Of a stretch of DNA of 9,553 bases, positions 2,012 to 9,553 are shown piece by piece (positions within the stretch are counted from its first letter, which is position 1; every line of letters begins with the position of its first letter). The stretch spans positions 1-9,553 of the forward strand of contig JADFKM010000067.1 in assembly GCA_022564935.1 (NCBI GenBank), given 5' to 3'. The notes below the pieces were generated by a model. It did no database searches, was not told the DNA's origin, and saw nothing but the letters and a program-made list of their open reading frames with translations. The translations under genes were made by a program, and so were the position numbers. The DNA is from Candidatus Dadabacteria bacterium (GTDB taxonomy: Bacteria; Desulfobacterota_D; UBA1144; Nemesobacterales; JADFKM01).

Positions 2012-5000
2012 ATGTCATTTCTCAGAAATAAATATGTAAGGGTTCTGCTGATCACCGCCGCCGCTCTTTTATCGACAGCGGTCGTTACCGTGGCTGTTGT
2101 GACGAGGGTGGTTGTCCCACGGGAAGTCCACAGGTATTTGGAAGAGCTGAGCGAAGATACCGGGATCAGGATTGACCTGAATGATATAAGTTACGATATC
2201 GTTCGCGGCCTTAAGGGGCGCGGCTTCTCGGTGTCAGACCTGACAGACATGGCCAACCCGTTTTTCACAGTGCGCAACCTGGTCATTAAGCACGATATAT
2301 TCTCCCCCCTCCTCGGAGCCACGATAAAGATCCGGGGCAGGATTGAGGCCCCCTCCATAGAGCTTTCCACGGCCGGGATAGAAAAACTCTCCGAGTTGAT
2401 CGACCGAGGACGTAAGCAAATGGGGGCGGATGATGGGAAAAAGAAGGGGAAGTTCACCGTCGAGATGGAAAGCCTTGAGATAATAGACGCTGAAATAAGA
2501 CTGCCCTCCGAAAAATCCGTCTTTCTACAAAAAATCATGGTGCGTTTTGGCGAGAAAAATGTCGAAAATCAAAAGACCATTAAAATCGAGGTATTCACTC
2601 GAATTGAGAACAACGCCGCCAGTGCCTTTGGGGAGATTTTGCTCGGCGACCCTGTATCTACCGTCCGGGTGCGTGTGAGCGTACCTGCACCGGACTTGAA
2701 ATTCATCTCCCCTCTCTTGGAGCTCAAGGAGCAAACCACAATCAATTTAAATGTTGAGCTCATTATAGACGATGGAGTTAGAGCCTCGGGGGTTATCACC
2801 CTTGGCAGTACCGGCGGCTTAAAGACCACGGAGCTGCCGCCCGCCGTAAGGATAGATTTCGATGCCGGTTTGAACAGAGCGCTCCAAAACTTAGTTCTAA
2901 GCGGGCTTGACGTTTATGTTAACGGGTTTTCGGCCCTGACGCTCACAGGAACGGTTGAGGGCGCCCTCAGTAAACGCAGGAGCTTCGATATAAGGGGCAA
3001 GGGCGCAAGCTTTGGTATTGAGGGTATTTCGGGGCTGTTTGCGGCACTCTCGAGTGTGGAGCTAAGGGGAAGGGTTACGGCCTCTGAGATTTCCCTTACC
3101 GGCTCGCCCGCCGGGGAAGGGTTGAAAATGGAGGTCGACGTTGGTCTAGATGGTGTTGAAGCGGCACACAAACAGGGGAAATTTCGCCTGAGGGGCCTGG
3201 GGGGCAATCTGAGATTCAATAAAACGGTGTACTCCGACAGAGGAGATGTGACGAGCTTGAGGGGGGAGCTGGCTATTGAGGGTATTGACGCCGTTTACGG
3301 CGGGCTCCGGGATTTGAGAGTGGGTATTGAGATGGAAGGCGGGAGGGGGAGCGAGGGCAAGCTCAAGCTCTTATTAACGAGAGCTTCTTATTCCGGCGGG
3401 GCCGTTTCCGGCGAGCTTAATCTAGCCTTGAAGGGGGGCGATGAATTTTTCTCCGGCAGCTTCAGGGGGAGCGACATTGATTTGAGTGGAGTGAATTTTG
3501 TCAACGCTGCGGGCGCCGCGCTGAGTTTAGACGGGAGGGTCGATACCATCGAGGGAAAGTTCAATGCCCTGAGGGGAGGCGGACTGAGAGTGGATGCGAA
3601 GCTTGACCTTACCGGTTTCGGAGCTAGTTACAGGGGCAGGGAGATATTGAGGTCGAGCAGTATAGGGGTGGATAAAGAACTCACCGTCATCTACAGCGCT
3701 TCGGGAAAAGACAAATTTTCGGTCGAATCGTCTGGCGTTGTATTTTCCGACCTTCTGTACGGGGAGCTTTTTTATGTTAAGAGGGGGCGGGGAAAAGGGA
3801 AATTCAGCTTCAGGAGTGCCGGGGACTGGACGCTTGAGGTCGGCTCGACCGGCGAGGGGGGCTTGATCAGAGCGCTGGGCTTAATACTGGGCGAATTCGA
3901 GCTCGATCTTTCGAGAGGCGTTCATGAAAACGGAGTTATGATAGGCACGGTGAAAGGAAGGGACGGCATGTTCCTGGGGCGCTCGATTGCCACATACTCC
4001 ACCGGGTTCGGGTATAGGGACAGGGAGTTGAGACTCGAAGGCTTGAGGCTTGGAGTTGCGGGGCTGGGAGAGGGGGAATTAAAGAAATTGCGCCTTAAAT
4101 TCGGCGAAGATGAGACTTACTCGGCCGACGCGGATGGAGGAGAGTTCAGCCTGTTTGGCGGAAGGCTCAGTCTGCGTGGTGTAAGCGGCGAGGTCGGGTT
4201 CACGGGAAGCGGGCGGGGATTAAAATGGAAGGGGATGGTAAAAGCACGCGGGGGCGATGTGTTGGGGGCGGGAATTAAAGACCTGACACTGCGCACCGGG
4301 GGCGGTTGGGATGATTTTTATATCGAAGACATCAAAGTGACCGTCGCCGAAGGTTCTCTTGGAGGCTCCCTAAGGGTAAAGCGGGGCGCGTCGGGGCGGC
4401 GGGTGAAGGCAGAATTCCAGCACAGTGGAGGCAGGATACCGCTGGGCGATTCCGTCTTCGCTCTTGGGGGAGCCGCGCTCAGTCTTGACGGTGTTTTTTT
4501 TGGCGGAGGCACCGGGGTTCCGGAGGGAAAACTGAAACTGTATATTCGCGACCTTACAGCTTTAGCCGACGGGGACTCACAACCTGTTTTCACGGGCGGA
4601 GTGCATATGTCGGGCTCTGGTGAAACCATGAGGCTTGAGGGGTGGTTATTAGATAGCGCGACACGCAAAGGGCTCAGAATGACCGGGGCCCTCGATAAAA
4701 ACGGGAGGCTGAGCGTTAAAGTGCCCGAATTCGCTGTTGAATCCGTAGGAGGTGTCCTGTCCCCCGTTATCTCAAAATTCGTCGGGCGGGCGGAGCTTCA
4801 TGGCGGGGTGGGCATGGAGATCGAAGTCGAGAATTTCCCCTCTGACAATGCCGCGATTAACGGCTCTCTGAGCCTCAGGGAGTTTTCATTATCGGGTACG
4901 GTCTCAGGAACTGAGCTTACCATCTCAAACGCTAATGGTGAGGTTTTCTTACGCAGCGTCCGGGAGACCGGCGGCGCCATTTCCTCTTTATCCACCGGCG

Positions 5001-5716
5001 CGTTCAGAGGAGATAAGAAGTCTTTTAAGAAATTTATGAAGGCGCAAAAAAGCAAAGACGGACGGCGGCTAAGAGCTCAGGCCCTTTCCGTAGACCGCCT
5101 AGAGTACGGTTTTGTACGGCTTGATGATATCGAGGTCCTCATCGAGGCCGGCACGGAGGGAATAAGTATCGTCGACCTCCGCTCCAAGTTTAACGATGGA
5201 GACGTTTACTGCGATGGGACGTTGCGTTTTGACGGGGCTAAAAGTGGTTTAATGCTTGGGTTGTTGATGAGCGATATTAGCTTGTTGTCGTTTACAACGA
5301 GCCTCGGACTGGAGGATTATGTCTCGGGTAGGGTTAACGGGCTGGTTTCACTTCGGGGTGAAGCAACTGGGCTGGATGCCGTAGACGGGTCGTTCAGCTT
5401 CTGGGCAATAAAGTCTCCCAAGGAGCCGCGGTGGGTAGGAAAGGCGTTCTTGAAGAAGCTGGGAATGAAAGAAAAGCTTTTTCTGCGCTCCTCCAGAAAA
5501 TTCAACAAAGGTGAAGTTCACGGTACAATAACCGATGGAATTATCACGTTTGGGAAGTTCGATATATCCCACAGGATTTTCGGACTAATCACCGATTTCC
5601 GAATTCAGGTTGATCCAAAGGGTAATTTGGTATCTATCGGGCACCTGCTCTCTGTGATAAAGGAGACTGCTAAGAGGATAAGGGAGGGCGGTCTCGAGAT
5701 TGAATACAAAAAATAA
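2012..5716 (+). CDS. Large AsmA/YdbH-like membrane-anchored protein, putative intermembrane lipid-transport bridge
   Basis: This 1234-residue protein has a short basic N-terminus, one membrane segment (about residues 9-35, rich in V, L, A and T) and then over 1150 residues of periplasmic sequence made of short alternating beta-strands with many Gly, Ser and Asp turns and no enzyme motifs. That is the style of AsmA-like/TamB/YhdP/YdbH proteins, whose repeats stack into a long hydrophobic groove that carries phospholipids from inner to outer membrane. Internal similarity is visible, for example A-A-L-S-L-D-G at residues ~502-508 and ~821-827. The next gene, 19 bases on, encodes a lipoprotein with a YdbL (DUF1318) domain, matching the E. 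coli ydbH-ynbE-ydbL operon and favouring a YdbH-like role. E. coli YdbH is about 880 residues, so this one is considerably longer. ATG 2012 is chosen because it places the basic residues directly before the membrane segment; an in-frame TTG at 1973 would add 13 residues. Neither has a clear ribosome binding site. The family call rests on architecture and context, not on a conserved motif. Confidence 0.8.
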   Translation: MSFLRNKYVRVLLITAAALLSTAVVTVAVVTRVVVPREVHRYLEELSEDTGIRIDLNDISYDIVRGLKGRGFSVSDLTDMANPFFTVRNLVIKHDIFSPLLGATIKIRGRIEAPSIELSTAGIEKLSELIDRGRKQMGADDGKKKGKFTVEMESLEIIDAEIRLPSEKSVFLQKIMVRFGEKNVENQKTIKIEVFTRIENNAASAFGEILLGDPVSTVRVRVSVPAPDLKFISPLLELKEQTTINLNVELIIDDGVRASGVITLGSTGGLKTTELPPAVRIDFDAGLNRALQNLVLSGLDVYVNGFSALTLTGTVEGALSKRRSFDIRGKGASFGIEGISGLFAALSSVELRGRVTASEISLTGSPAGEGLKMEVDVGLDGVEAAHKQGKFRLRGLGGNLRFNKTVYSDRGDVTSLRGELAIEGIDAVYGGLRDLRVGIEMEGGRGSEGKLKLLLTRASYSGGAVSGELNLALKGGDEFFSGSFRGSDIDLSGVNFVNAAGAALSLDGRVDTIEGKFNALRGGGLRVDAKLDLTGFGASYRGREILRSSSIGVDKELTVIYSASGKDKFSVESSGVVFSDLLYGELFYVKRGRGKGKFSFRSAGDWTLEVGSTGEGGLIRALGLILGEFELDLSRGVHENGVMIGTVKGRDGMFLGRSIATYSTGFGYRDRELRLEGLRLGVAGLGEGELKKLRLKFGEDETYSADADGGEFSLFGGRLSLRGVSGEVGFTGSGRGLKWKGMVKARGGDVLGAGIKDLTLRTGGGWDDFYIEDIKVTVAEGSLGGSLRVKRGASGRRVKAEFQHSGGRIPLGDSVFALGGAALSLDGVFFGGGTGVPEGKLKLYIRDLTALADGDSQPVFTGGVHMSGSGETMRLEGWLLDSATRKGLRMTGALDKNGRLSVKVPEFAVESVGGVLSPVISKFVGRAELHGGVGMEIEVENFPSDNAAINGSLSLREFSLSGTVSGTELTISNANGEVFLRSVRETGGAISSLSTGAFRGDKKSFKKFMKAQKSKDGRRLRAQALSVDRLEYGFVRLDDIEVLIEAGTEGISIVDLRSKFNDGDVYCDGTLRFDGAKSGLMLGLLMSDISLLSFTTSLGLEDYVSGRVNGLVSLRGEATGLDAVDGSFSFWAIKSPKEPRWVGKAFLKKLGMKEKLFLRSSRKFNKGEVHGTITDGIITFGKFDISHRIFGLITDFRIQVDPKGNLVSIGHLLSVIKETAKRIREGGLEIEYKK

Positions 5717-5722
5717 CTTAAC

Positions 5723-5728
5723 AGGAGA
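5723..5728 (+). promoter_or_regulatory. Ribosome binding site deciding the lipoprotein start
   Basis: AGGAGA ends 7 bases before the ATG at 5736. It is the clearest Shine-Dalgarno in the window. It selects the ATG over the in-frame TTG at 5700, which lies inside the end of the upstream gene and would push the signal peptide away from the N-terminus. Confidence 0.8.
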
Positions 5729-5735
5729 GATTACT

Positions 5736-6458
5736 ATGAGCATATCCGGTTCAAATTATGTCGGTTTGTTTATACTGGCTGGTGTATTGTGCTTGAGCTC
5801 ATGCGCAATAATAACGATAAATGTAAATTTCCCTGCCCAGGAAGTTAGAAAGGCGTATGAAGACTTAGAAGACGAGCTTCTGAAAGAGCCCGAAGAGGAG
5901 GATGCAGGGGAGGAAGCCCCTCAGGGTAGCCCCGAGAGCATCCCTGAGCCTTCCGGTCGGGAGTCGGCCCCCCTTGAGCAGCCTCCCGGCAACATTGTCA
6001 TTCAGCTCAGGAAAGTGGTGTTTATAACCGAGCTGTTAAATTTAGATGTTTCTCCGAGGGCCTGGGCCCAGGATGATCTGGCAGGAGAGATAGGGAAGCA
6101 GATTCGCAGCATGCCTGAGGTCCTAAAGGCCTACAAGAGCAGGTCGAGGCGTTTGTCTTCGGTTAATTCCATGCTTGCCTCCGGCATTGTCGGTGAGGGC
6201 AAAAACGGGCTTCTCGTAAAAAGAGGCTCCCTTACCCAGGCGCAGGCAGGCGCAATGAACGACGAAAACTCAGACAGGGGGGTTATAATCAAGGGTATGG
6301 CGGTTGCGATTCTGAAGATACGCAGTTTCGAGGTGAACTCCCAGAATATAAACGAAGTGTATCCGAAGGCGGCAGCTGAATTTGCCGCCACCCGCAGAAC
6401 CAAGGCAAAGAGGGGCGCGTGGATTCAGAGTCCTAAAGGCTCATGGAATAGGAGATAG
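5736..6458 (+). CDS. Lipoprotein with YnbE-like N-terminus fused to a DUF1318/YdbL-like domain
   Basis: This 240-residue protein starts with a short hydrophobic signal (residues ~8-22) and the lipobox L-S-S-C, with acylation expected at Cys23 and Ala at +2, which favours the outer membrane. After the Cys come I-T-I-N-V-N-F-P and a charged helix (residues 36-50), resembling the small lipoprotein YnbE and the N-termini of many DUF1318 lipoproteins. Residues 50-85 are an acidic Pro/Glu/Ser linker. Residues ~133-236 match DUF1318 (YdbL): S-G-I-V-G-E-G-K-N-G-L, then D-E-N-S-D-R-G, an Ala-rich helix, and R-G-A-W-I-Q-S-P-K-G-S-W at the end. In E. coli, YnbE partners YdbH in an intermembrane bridge and YdbL modulates it; the gene here follows a YdbH-like gene by 19 bases, so the two are almost certainly cotranscribed. 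The segment V-V-F-I-T-E-L-L to R-A-W-A-Q-D-D (94-114) looks like a decayed second signal peptide. Lipoprotein and DUF1318 calls are strong; fusion of two functions is inference. Confidence 0.85.
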   Translation: MSISGSNYVGLFILAGVLCLSSCAIITINVNFPAQEVRKAYEDLEDELLKEPEEEDAGEEAPQGSPESIPEPSGRESAPLEQPPGNIVIQLRKVVFITELLNLDVSPRAWAQDDLAGEIGKQIRSMPEVLKAYKSRSRRLSSVNSMLASGIVGEGKNGLLVKRGSLTQAQAGAMNDENSDRGVIIKGMAVAILKIRSFEVNSQNINEVYPKAAAEFAATRRTKAKRGAWIQSPKGSWNRR

Positions 6459-6560: not shown

Positions 6561-8354
6561 TTAAACACTCAGCTGCCTGCTCACAAAGTGCGGCAGGGCT
6601 ACGGTGAACTTGCTTCCAACGCCCACTTCACTCTCGACATCCACAGCTCCGCCGTGCATGATGGCGATGTGTTTTACAATGCTCAGGCCGAGCCCAGTGC
6701 CTCCCATCTTTGAGGAGCGCGATTTGTCGACCCTGTAGAACCTCTCGAAAATCCTCGGCAGGTGCTCGGAAGGTATGCCGATGCCCGTGTCTCGGATTTC
6801 GACTTTTATCTGCGTGGGGCCGGCGGATACCGATAGATTGACGCTGCCCTGTTCCGGTGTGTATTTCACTGCGTTCTCAAGGAGGTTTATGAACATCTGC
6901 TCGAGGAGGAACGCGTCTCCGCTGCATCGAGGCTCGGGCTCCGTTATATTCAGTTCGAGACTTATCTTTTTAGCGTCGATTTTTGTTTTAAGGGCGTCAA
7001 TTGAGGATTGCAGTACAAGCTTCAAATCGACGTTCCGAAACTCCTTGCCGGTTTCTTCCCCAAAGAGGGCTGTTTTTCTTTCTATTTCGGACAGCACAAG
7101 GAGGTCGTTCACTATGTTAATGAGCCTTTCTGTGTGCCTTTTGATGATGCTTAAGAACTGGGATTGTTGCTCCTGGTCGTCATAGGCGCCCTCATAGAGT
7201 GTTTCCACGTATCCCTTAACGGCGGTAAGCGGGGTTTTGAGCTCATGAGAGACATTTGCCACGAAGTCCGCCTTAATCTTCTCAAGCCTCTTGAACTCCG
7301 TTATGTCAAACAGCATCACTATGGCCCCTCCTGCGGGTGTTCCCAGGGGCAGGGCGCTTACCATGTAGGATTTCTCAGATGGATAGAAAGGGTATATCTC
7401 CCTCTTGTCGGATTTTTTGTTTTCCAGGACAGTTTTGAGCAGCTCGATTACCTCTCTGTTTCTTAAGACTTCCCAGTAAGGTTTGTGGATTGGAGTTTCG
7501 GTAAGCTCAAGCATGTTTCTCAGTGACTGGTTGGCCAGGATAATACGTCCGTCTACAGAAACCGCGATTACCCCTTCGGCCATTGCGCTTATCACGGCTT
7601 CGAGTTGAGATTTTTCAAAGTCCACCCGGTAAAAAAGCTCCTTGAGCTTCTCGGCCATCCCGCTAAGGGCAAGAGCGAGTTTCGCTCCCTCCGGGGAGCC
7701 GTCCTTAACGGATATTTCGACATCAAAATTCCCCTTCGCTATTTCTTCCGATATCCTCGACGCAGTTTCCAGGGAGCGGGCCAGCTCCCGTTTCGAGACT
7801 ATCTCTATTGCCATGACAATGAAGCTCAGTATCAATGCGGCGAGCACAATTTTTGCCGTCAGGTACAGGGGGCCTCCTCTCCTCTCCTCAAGCGGAGCGG
7901 ATGCCATCAATACTGCAGATACCCTCCCCCCTTCATCTCTTATCGGCAAAGCCACATACAATACGGAGCCCTCACCGGGGGCTTCCCTTCTCAGGTCGAT
8001 ACCCATTCCCTCCCTTACCGCTCCGGTGAACTCCTTGGAGGTAGAAAGGTTTCGGGGCTTTGTGGAGACACGCAGCGTATCTGCCGTTACATTCCCCTGG
8101 GCGTCGGTCACGGTGAACCTGATGCCTGTTTTTCTCCCGGCCTCTCTAAGCAGCCCGGTGAGCGCTTCGCTGTCTCCGGTTTTTAACGCCGGCCTTAGCG
8201 TGTCGCTCAGTAAATTGATGCTGCTCATAAGGGCGTCTTGTTTGTTGGACGGGTCGGAAGTGTTCAGCTCATGGGTGAACAGCGCCGCAACTATACCCAG
8301 CGCTATCAATATGACAAAGAAGATCAAAAAAAATTTCTTCCATGTTGATTGCAA
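6561..8354 (-). CDS. phoR: PhoR-type sensor histidine kinase
   Basis: This 597-residue inner-membrane kinase would autophosphorylate and pass phosphate to the adjacent PhoB-type regulator. In order it has a first membrane segment (~8-26), an extracytoplasmic sensor region (~27-165) and a second membrane segment (~167-185). A HAMP linker (~187-240) and a PAS domain (~248-352, E-G-V-I-A-V then D-G-R-I-I-L-A-N) follow. HisKA comes next with His370 in N-V-S-H-E-L-K-T-P-L, then the ATPase domain with N-box L-L-E-N-A-V-K-Y-T (Asn494), D-T-G-I-G-I (522-527), F-box F-E-R-F-Y-R-V-D and G-G-T-G-L-G-L-S. All catalytic boxes are intact. The start is TTG at 8354: AGGA at 8366-8363 lies 8 bases upstream and overlaps the phoB stop codon, which suggests translational coupling. 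The ATG at 8343 is out of frame. PhoR is the best name from HAMP-PAS-HisKA order and pairing with a PhoB-like regulator, but no phosphate-uptake genes are in view, so another envelope signal is possible. Confidence 0.92.
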   Translation of the reverse strand: MQSTWKKFFLIFFVILIALGIVAALFTHELNTSDPSNKQDALMSSINLLSDTLRPALKTGDSEALTGLLREAGRKTGIRFTVTDAQGNVTADTLRVSTKPRNLSTSKEFTGAVREGMGIDLRREAPGEGSVLYVALPIRDEGGRVSAVLMASAPLEERRGGPLYLTAKIVLAALILSFIVMAIEIVSKRELARSLETASRISEEIAKGNFDVEISVKDGSPEGAKLALALSGMAEKLKELFYRVDFEKSQLEAVISAMAEGVIAVSVDGRIILANQSLRNMLELTETPIHKPYWEVLRNREVIELLKTVLENKKSDKREIYPFYPSEKSYMVSALPLGTPAGGAIVMLFDITEFKRLEKIKADFVANVSHELKTPLTAVKGYVETLYEGAYDDQEQQSQFLSIIKRHTERLINIVNDLLVLSEIERKTALFGEETGKEFRNVDLKLVLQSSIDALKTKIDAKKISLELNITEPEPRCSGDAFLLEQMFINLLENAVKYTPEQGSVNLSVSAGPTQIKVEIRDTGIGIPSEHLPRIFERFYRVDKSRSSKMGGTGLGLSIVKHIAIMHGGAVDVESEVGVGSKFTVALPHFVSRQLSV

Positions 8355-8362
8355 AGTCCGTA

Positions 8363-8366
8363 TCCT
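8363..8366 (-). promoter_or_regulatory. Ribosome binding site for the kinase gene, overlapping the phoB stop
   Basis: On the minus strand AGGA (8366-8363) begins inside the TAG stop of the response-regulator gene (8367-8365) and lies 8 bases before the TTG start at 8354. It supports the TTG as the true start, and ribosomes finishing phoB could reinitiate there. Confidence 0.55.
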
Positions 8367-9054
8367 ATGTTTGAAGTTTGTATCCTACACCGCGGATGGT
8401 CTCGATCATTTTTCCGGCCTCGCCCAGTTTTTCTCTCAGATTCTTTATGTGAACGTCTATCGTTCTGTCATATATCAGCTTTTCATCTCCCCACAGGCGC
8501 TTTTGCTTTATAAGGACGTCTCTTGTGAAAACTTTGCCCGGAGATTTTGAAAGGGCTTCAAGTATCTTGAATTCCGTTGTAGTAAGCGACAGTTTTTTAC
8601 CCTCGACGGTTACCTCATACCCCTCTGAGTCTATGGTGATTGGACCCACGGTAACTGCGGTTGCATCTGCATTGGGCTCGCTCATCCTCCTGAATATCAT
8701 TTTTACCCTCGCAACGAGCTCTCCGGGGCTGAAGGGCTTTACCATGTAATCGTCGGCTCCCAGCTCCAGGCCCAGAACGATGTCCGCCTCAGTGCCCTTG
8801 GCGGTTAGCATGATAATGGGCACCGAGGCGGTGCGTGTTGAGCGTTTCAAAATCTTGCAAATCTCTAGTCCGTCCACCCCCGGAAGCATTATGTCGAGAA
8901 TAACGATGTCAGGATGGGCCCCCTGCATGTACAACAGGAAATCTTTACCGTTGAAAAAACTCCTGACTTTAAAGCCTGCTCTTTTAAGGTGGTGAGTGAG
9001 GAGATCAAGAATGTCTTTTTCATCGTCGACTACGGCTATTGTCCTTTCGTCCAT
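8365..9054 (-). CDS. phoB: PhoB-type response regulator (receiver plus winged-helix DNA-binding domain)
   Basis: This 229-residue protein is a full-length OmpR/PhoB-family transcription regulator. The receiver domain covers about residues 4-120, with the acidic pair Asp10/Asp11, the phosphoacceptor Asp54 in V-I-L-D-I-M-L-P-G, Thr84 in M-L-T-A-K, and Lys106 in V-K-P-F-S-P. The winged-helix output domain covers about 135-229, with L-T-T-T-E-F-K-I-L at 157-165, the recognition-helix region D-R-T-I-D-V-H-I-K-N-L-R-E-K-L (196-210) and R-G-V-G-Y-K-L at the end. The partner kinase gene starts 10 bases downstream, so the two form an operon. The ATG at 9054 gives the expected receiver N-terminus, yet it has no Shine-Dalgarno; a promoter-like pair lies directly upstream (see 9062-9090), so a near-leaderless transcript is possible. 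The phosphate-regulon role is inferred from family resemblance. No Pho box was recognised upstream. Confidence 0.93.
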   Translation of the reverse strand: MDERTIAVVDDEKDILDLLTHHLKRAGFKVRSFFNGKDFLLYMQGAHPDIVILDIMLPGVDGLEICKILKRSTRTASVPIIMLTAKGTEADIVLGLELGADDYMVKPFSPGELVARVKMIFRRMSEPNADATAVTVGPITIDSEGYEVTVEGKKLSLTTTEFKILEALSKSPGKVFTRDVLIKQKRLWGDEKLIYDRTIDVHIKNLREKLGEAGKMIETIRGVGYKLQT

Positions 9055-9096: not shown

Positions 9097-9492
9097 CTAG
9101 TCGGCGCCGTCCCCGGAAAGTTTTATTGCCCTCTCGACGGTCTCTTCGATAATGGAGCGTATTTCGTCCAGTCTCTCCTGTGTTTCGGCCTCGTACCTGA
9201 AGACCAGCGCAGGCTGGGTGTTGGAGGCCCTCAGGAGACCCCACCCGTCGGGGAACTCGATCCTGGCCCCGTCGATCTCGATCACATTATATTGAGCGCG
9301 AAGCTCCCGCGTGGCCCTCCTCACCACGTCGAACTTCATCTCGTCCGGACAGTCCACCCTTATTTCCGGGGTGTAGTAAGCCTTCGCGATCCCTTCGAGG
9401 AGCTCGGAGGTCTTTTTCCCGGTCTTGGACAGGATTTCAAGCAAACGCAGGGCGGCGTACAGGGCTTGAGTGTACTCCGGCTTGTTTCGAAC
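9097..9492 (-). CDS. Phosphomannomutase/phosphoglucomutase, C-terminal part (frame broken near the right edge)
   Basis: The minus strand encodes the last ~131 residues of an alpha-D-phosphohexomutase (ManB/AlgC type), which interconverts hexose-6-phosphates and hexose-1-phosphates for sugar-nucleotide and surface-polysaccharide synthesis in the cytoplasm. Seen directly are the helix A-L-Y-A-A-L-R-L-L-E-I-L-S-K-T-G and then domain 4, with F-P-D-G-W-G-L-L and the phosphate-binding motif R-A-S-N-T-Q-P (9231-9211). The protein ends with a charged helix and G-D-G-A-D before TAG. The rest of the enzyme should lie beyond the right edge, but an in-frame TAG at 9495-9493 interrupts it, and the G-G-E-x-S-G-H loop expected just upstream of this helix is not readable in any single frame. 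Either the gene is frameshifted or the last ~100 bases of sequence are poor. It precedes phoB by 42 bases in the same direction. The family call is firm; which sugar it prefers cannot be told. Confidence 0.8.
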   Translation of the reverse strand, partial: VRNKPEYTQALYAALRLLEILSKTGKKTSELLEGIAKAYYTPEIRVDCPDEMKFDVVRRATRELRAQYNVIEIDGARIEFPDGWGLLRASNTQPALVFRYEAETQERLDEIRSIIEETVERAIKLSGDGAD

Positions 9493-9553
9493 CTATTGTT
9501 GTCCGTCCGGCCCCCGATCCGGCGGAGCCGAACCTCGGCCGCCATCCACGCCT

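Follow-up and report, generated by a model that had tools for sequence, protein, structure and literature searches.

This locus bears on the route by which phospholipids travel to the outer membrane and on the means by which AsmA-like bridges are attached there. In E. coli the lipoprotein YnbE, located in the outer membrane, is a binding partner of YdbH (PMC12977461, PMC11784454), and YdbH-YnbE is the only AsmA-like bridge with a lipoprotein partner in a review of these systems (PMC11784454). The window, that is the whole analysed stretch of 9,553 nucleotides from a Candidatus Dadabacteria genome (contig JADFKM010000067.1), carries two consecutive genes that a sequence-only reading had taken for a two-gene version of the YdbH-YnbE-YdbL system. 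The sequence bears out what that reading had described: two open reading frames of the stated sizes, a 19-base intergenic gap between them (5717-5735) and one hydrophobic anchor at the N-terminus of the large protein. Our main reading is that the pair probably forms a lipid bridge between the two membranes, made of two components and with YdbL as a tethered chaperone (probability roughly 0.6). The features used in the argument are as follows, all on the forward strand.

2012..5716, +, AsmA-like large protein of 1234 aa, the proposed bridge body (sequence; relatives match PF05170 and PF05359)
2033..2116, +, N-terminal hydrophobic anchor of the large protein, residues 8-35 (sequence)
4724..5713, +, C-terminal 330 residues of the large protein, the proposed outer-membrane-proximal end of the groove (hhalign, YdbH C-terminus best)
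5723..5729, +, putative ribosome-binding site AGGAGAG, inside the 19-base gap (sequence)
5736..6458, +, fused lipoprotein of 240 aa, YnbE-like leader plus YdbL/DUF1318 domain (sequence, PF07027)
5736..5804, +, lipoprotein signal peptide and lipobox LSSC, with predicted acylated Cys23, then Ala (sequence)
5808..5834, +, IITINVNFP, residues 25-33, predicted short amphipathic strand (conservation, hhalign against YnbE)
5835..5879, +, acidic amphipathic helix following the strand (AlphaFold2, mature residues 12-26, block pLDDT 81-91)
5892..6071, +, disordered low-complexity linker of about 60 residues (pLDDT <50, mature residues 31-90)
6078..6455, +, YdbL (DUF1318) domain (PF07027, AlphaFold2, superposition on 28oj)

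The C-terminal domain of the lipoprotein is, on profile match and predicted fold together, certain to be a YdbL domain, and here the earlier claim of a YdbL/DUF1318 domain on a lipoprotein is borne out. PF07027 matches residues 141-240 with 36.9 bits against a cut-off of 27 (E 5.3e-9). The AlphaFold2 model of the mature lipoprotein, built from 17 sequences, predicts mature residues 93-218 confidently as one domain (pLDDT by block mostly 91-98), and the best Foldseek match of the model is 28oj, the E. coli YdbL (TM 0.81 by target length), an entry named “probable chaperone-like protein YdbL” by its PDB depositors. VIA-align against this crystal structure gave Z 10.2 and an rmsd of 1.7 Å over 86 of 87 residues, the next row reaching 4.2. 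Whereas E. coli YdbL is a separate soluble periplasmic protein, this domain belongs to a lipoprotein whose lipid anchor is predicted at Cys23.

The N-terminal part of the same lipoprotein resembles YnbE in its layout, with lipobox, amphipathic strand and acidic helix all present (the helix in the model), and its resemblance in sequence is weak. The I-N-V-N-F-P stretch and charged helix of the sequence-only reading are thus there, together with the lipobox and the DUF1318 domain; of its YnbE-like N-terminus the layout stood, the family match did not, and a profile resemblance was found that a few shuffled alignments equal. The lipobox Cys and the following Ala are invariant in alignments A2 and A5. 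Within the lipoprotein family conservation is highest in the strand segment (consensus [IV]T[VI]N[VI]YFP), and among 54 distinct sequences T reaches 94%, N 96% and Y 93%, the F and P having been required by the search pattern. The window itself reads ITINVNFP, with N where 50 of the 54 sequences have Y (ITVNVYFP). E. coli YnbE can be written C-TPRIEVAAPKEP-ITINMNVKIEHEI... and the window leader C-AI-ITINVNF-P..., so that ITINMNV of YnbE lies beside ITINVNF of the window; the strand here is about half the length of that in E. coli and has Pro at its end. PF13617 (YnbE) gave no match in the window lipoprotein at E 1, and across 57 genomes of the window's phylum no match exceeded the profile's cut-off. 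When 49 ITVN-type leaders, with the lipid Cys removed from their alignment, were compared with the YnbE profile by hhalign, they aligned in the expected register with a score of 14.3, a value reached by 2 of 300 column shuffles of the leader alignment (7.8 +/- 1.9); against a small YnbE set the leader gave E 7.7. In the AlphaFold2 monomer model no strand is assigned to mature residues 1-10, and a motif left without a beta partner in a monomer fits the expectation for a docking strand.

These results also bear on whether the segment enters a groove at all. The lipoprotein could instead serve to tether the YdbL domain to the outer membrane, and this domain would itself contact the AsmA-like protein; ITVNVYFP would then be unrelated to YnbE, would form no groove strand, and would pack against the partner or the membrane. 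The weak kinship with YnbE just described, by shuffles, by E value and by the absence of a PF13617 match, argues for this, as does the half-length, Pro-ended strand, whereas the standing of the segment as the most conserved part of the lipoprotein, its amphipathic alternation of the groove-strand kind, and the recognisable YnbE-like sequence at the same place in two YdbL-fused proteins (L046 and L052) argue against it. We regard such a tether as unlikely.

The bridge reading also draws on the pairing of the two genes. Profile searches for both proteins were carried out on the 57 genomes of the window's phylum; each protein was found in 25 genomes, and two genomes (G002 and G024) gave partial matches only. 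Both genes occur in 24 genomes and neither in 31. In all 24 genomes with both, the large protein sits directly upstream of the lipoprotein with the YnbE/YdbL parts; these genomes are related, and the 24 adjacent pairs are not to be read as a number of independent events. Such adjacency in all 24 genomes is far beyond chance, and the pair looks obligate. A count of just 11 of the 57 genomes for the lipoprotein, obtained with PF07027 alone, was wrong and was rejected: it missed family f2 because the C-terminus of these proteins is shortened. The f2 lipoproteins end at about ..FASVRRSER, having lost the last ~20 YdbL residues, namely the G-W-x-x-Q..G-x-W hairpin of the domain, and keep their AsmA-like partner (L165-L171 and L173-L177, in G015, G031, G018, G021, G039, G001, G029, G035, G012, G040, G033 and G042), which implies that the pair does not strictly need a complete domain and speaks against the bridge reading.

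Across phyla, with the window's phylum counted, an AsmA-like gene lies directly upstream of 46 of the 50 ITVN-type lipoproteins, so that consistent pairing with an AsmA-like protein holds there too. Free YdbL genes are accompanied instead by a gene of its own for YnbE in 15 of the 16 loci and by one of YdbH (PF11739) type in 14; the remaining loci are at contig ends. The survey of fused versus split forms that had been proposed from the sequence separates the two arrangements by their partners, and the layout of a strand plus YdbL on one lipoprotein is common outside the relatives of E. coli. Four such lipoproteins of the Geobacteraceae type (L002, L005, L013 and L016) do not adjoin an AsmA-like gene, and the open reading frame upstream of each is another lipoprotein, of the CTAYKTQYAGF or CTTYKSQFVSF type. 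A further class of DUF1318 lipoproteins has a different leader (..GEKTALENQVLG.. in L051, L059, L065 and L066), and these also come after proteins with weak AsmA-like similarity.

The large protein was assigned through its relatives. The window protein itself gave no family match over cut-off, its sub-threshold matches being DUF2125 (E 0.008) and the AsmA equivalog (E 0.01). Across the 19 members of its family, the window protein counted among them, hmmscan matched DUF748 (PF05359) in 13 (best E 1.1e-25), AsmA (PF05170) in 11 (best E 5.7e-20) and YhdP in six (E 5e-19), and in the relatives some of the AsmA and DUF748 matches exceed the curated cut-offs. YdbH (PF11739) was matched in hmmscan by none of the 19; its sole trace is in a Geomonas homologue from the whole-genome search (E 2.2e-4, below cut-off), in contrast with E 2.3e-62 in the large protein of the split-type locus L100. 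In full-length hhalign the large-protein family scored 99.4% with the AsmA set, 98.5% with YdbH and 94.8% with TamB, and for the last 330 residues the C-terminal families gave YdbH 96.7% (E 3.4e-10), AsmA 95.0% and TamB 1.0%; family sets were used for these comparisons, single-sequence alignment against E. coli YdbH, TamB, YhdP and AsmA being uninformative, even for YdbH. Judged by these profiles, the large protein is a member of the AsmA-like superfamily and is not a YdbH by family. Of the earlier assignment, the AsmA-like character is retained, by way of the relatives, and the label YdbH is not.

The predicted structure of the large protein (AlphaFold2, 13 rows of Geobacteraceae homologues) is mostly beta, with a mean pLDDT of 38.8 and a pTM of 0.28, and because this prediction failed its groove is inferred from kinship. 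Foldseek matches of the model to ushers, LptD and apoB were discarded, the model being too poor, and matches to troponin (PDB search, large protein) and MS2 coat (family profile) were taken as chance. In locus L030 of G019 (2053-5399) a frameshift or a sequencing error divides the AsmA-like gene into two open reading frames of 440 and 667 aa.

Against the bridge reading stand the poor model of the large protein and the want of YdbH and YnbE family matches over cut-off. The proposed bridge would work as follows. The AsmA-like protein would be anchored in the inner membrane and would span the periplasm with a hydrophobic beta-groove, and the lipoprotein, through the lipid on Cys23, would sit in the outer membrane's inner leaflet. 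ITINVNF, with its alternating hydrophobic and polar residues, would join the C-terminal end of the groove as an extra strand, tying the groove to the outer membrane. The YdbL domain, on a flexible tether of about 60 residues that is long enough to reach back, may shield the sticky strand until docking and may keep the lipoproteins from stacking on one another, acting as a chaperone in cis; since strand and YdbL parts lie on one fused chain, their stoichiometry would be fixed. The cargo is presumed to be lipid. For E. coli, Kumar, Davis and Ruiz (PNAS, 2024) reportedly proposed that the YdbH groove is extended by strands of YnbE and that YdbL prevents runaway stacking of YnbE.

A complex of this shape might still serve another end. 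It could be an envelope-spanning AsmA-type complex with a role other than bulk phospholipid transport, for example in outer-membrane protein assembly or in the export of other lipids. The functions of AsmA-type proteins are diverse, and the genome also encodes TamB and other AsmA-like proteins, which could carry the phospholipid and which make redundancy of the E. coli kind likely. We hold this alternative to be quite improbable.

Comparison with known systems places the proposed lipid bridge more closely. With E. coli YdbH-YnbE-YdbL (b1381, b1382, b1383) it shares the order of a large AsmA-like gene, a lipoprotein strand and YdbL, as well as the YdbL fold and an ITIN motif a short way behind the lipidated Cys. 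It differs in having two genes instead of three, with strand and YdbL on one lipoprotein that lacks a PF13617 match, and in a large protein of AsmA/DUF748 type, 1234 aa versus 879, that lacks a match to PF11739. The name YdbH-YnbE-YdbL is right as an analogy for the working mode and, as family membership, holds for YdbL only. The AsmA and DUF748 families are those matched by the relatives of the large protein, and to our knowledge neither has a lipoprotein partner of its own. TamAB is alike in belonging to the repeating-groove superfamily, and the large-protein family profile matches the TamB of 9xdc (E 3.1e-7); however, its partner is the TamA beta-barrel and not a lipoprotein, and the C-terminal domain here has no match to the TamB C-terminus. 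The pairs of AsmA-like protein and DUF1318 lipoprotein in Geobacteraceae (e.g., Geomonas edaphica, L004) have the same two-gene layout, and their large proteins align full-length with that of the window (hhalign 100%, E 3e-43) but carry a C-terminal extension ending in ..EFKWEE.

The YdbL-domain tree was built on 105 columns only and has some long branches; in it all ITVN-type fused proteins fall on one side of a branch with 98/93 support that is found in 98% of bootstrap trees. On the other side are free YdbL, other DUF1318 lipoproteins and L046 and L052, which belong to two other lineages and show that YnbE-YdbL fusions do exist. This tree and the different large subunit suggest a parallel lineage, and not that the E. 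coli operon underwent a simple or recent fusion. A plain gene fusion of an E. coli-type ydbH-ynbE-ydbL operon, as the sequence-only reading had it, would account for the gene order, the domain content and the YdbH-like last 330 residues, but it is highly improbable given a large subunit of AsmA/DUF748 type outside PF11739, ITVN-type YdbL domains set apart from all free YdbL, and clear YnbE-YdbL fusions on the other side of the tree. The YnbE-YdbL fusions L107 (G144, 4108-5982) and L108 (G284, 4482-6131) have canonical YnbE-like leaders (KPIKIEAHITVDI and KPLRVDVNMRIDV) and much shorter upstream proteins, of 417 and 342 aa; they appear to be independent of the ITVN type.

A tentative extension, which we consider possible though somewhat short of even odds, is that the pairs represent a second AsmA lineage, separate from YdbH, with its own outer-membrane strand lipoprotein and a built-in YdbL chaperone, the ITVNVYFP strand having perhaps arisen independently of YnbE. 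If so, the capping of a groove by a lipoprotein strand under the control of YdbL would be a general solution reaching well beyond YdbH. The layout also predicts lipoprotein partners for proteins of AsmA/DUF748 type, and its many natural cases of strand and chaperone on one chain make the idea of YdbL as a chaperone testable by cutting the tether. A search of available full text, the scope of which did not extend to Kumar et al. 2024 and the group's 2023 review, returned no paper about the fused layout.

The pair has further neighbours in the window. Upstream lies a gene for an HtrA/DegP-like serine protease with PDZ domains (345-1868, +; PF17815, E 8.5e-49), and downstream, convergent with the lipoprotein gene, is a two-component system of PhoR/PhoB type with kinase and regulator (6561-9054, -). 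The contig closes with what we take to be the C-terminal end of a gene resembling phosphohexomutase (9097-9553, -), whose protein is not continued over the last ~55 bases, where there is an in-frame stop, perhaps a contig-end error. A gene similar to this last one is also found near the pair in L029 and L032.
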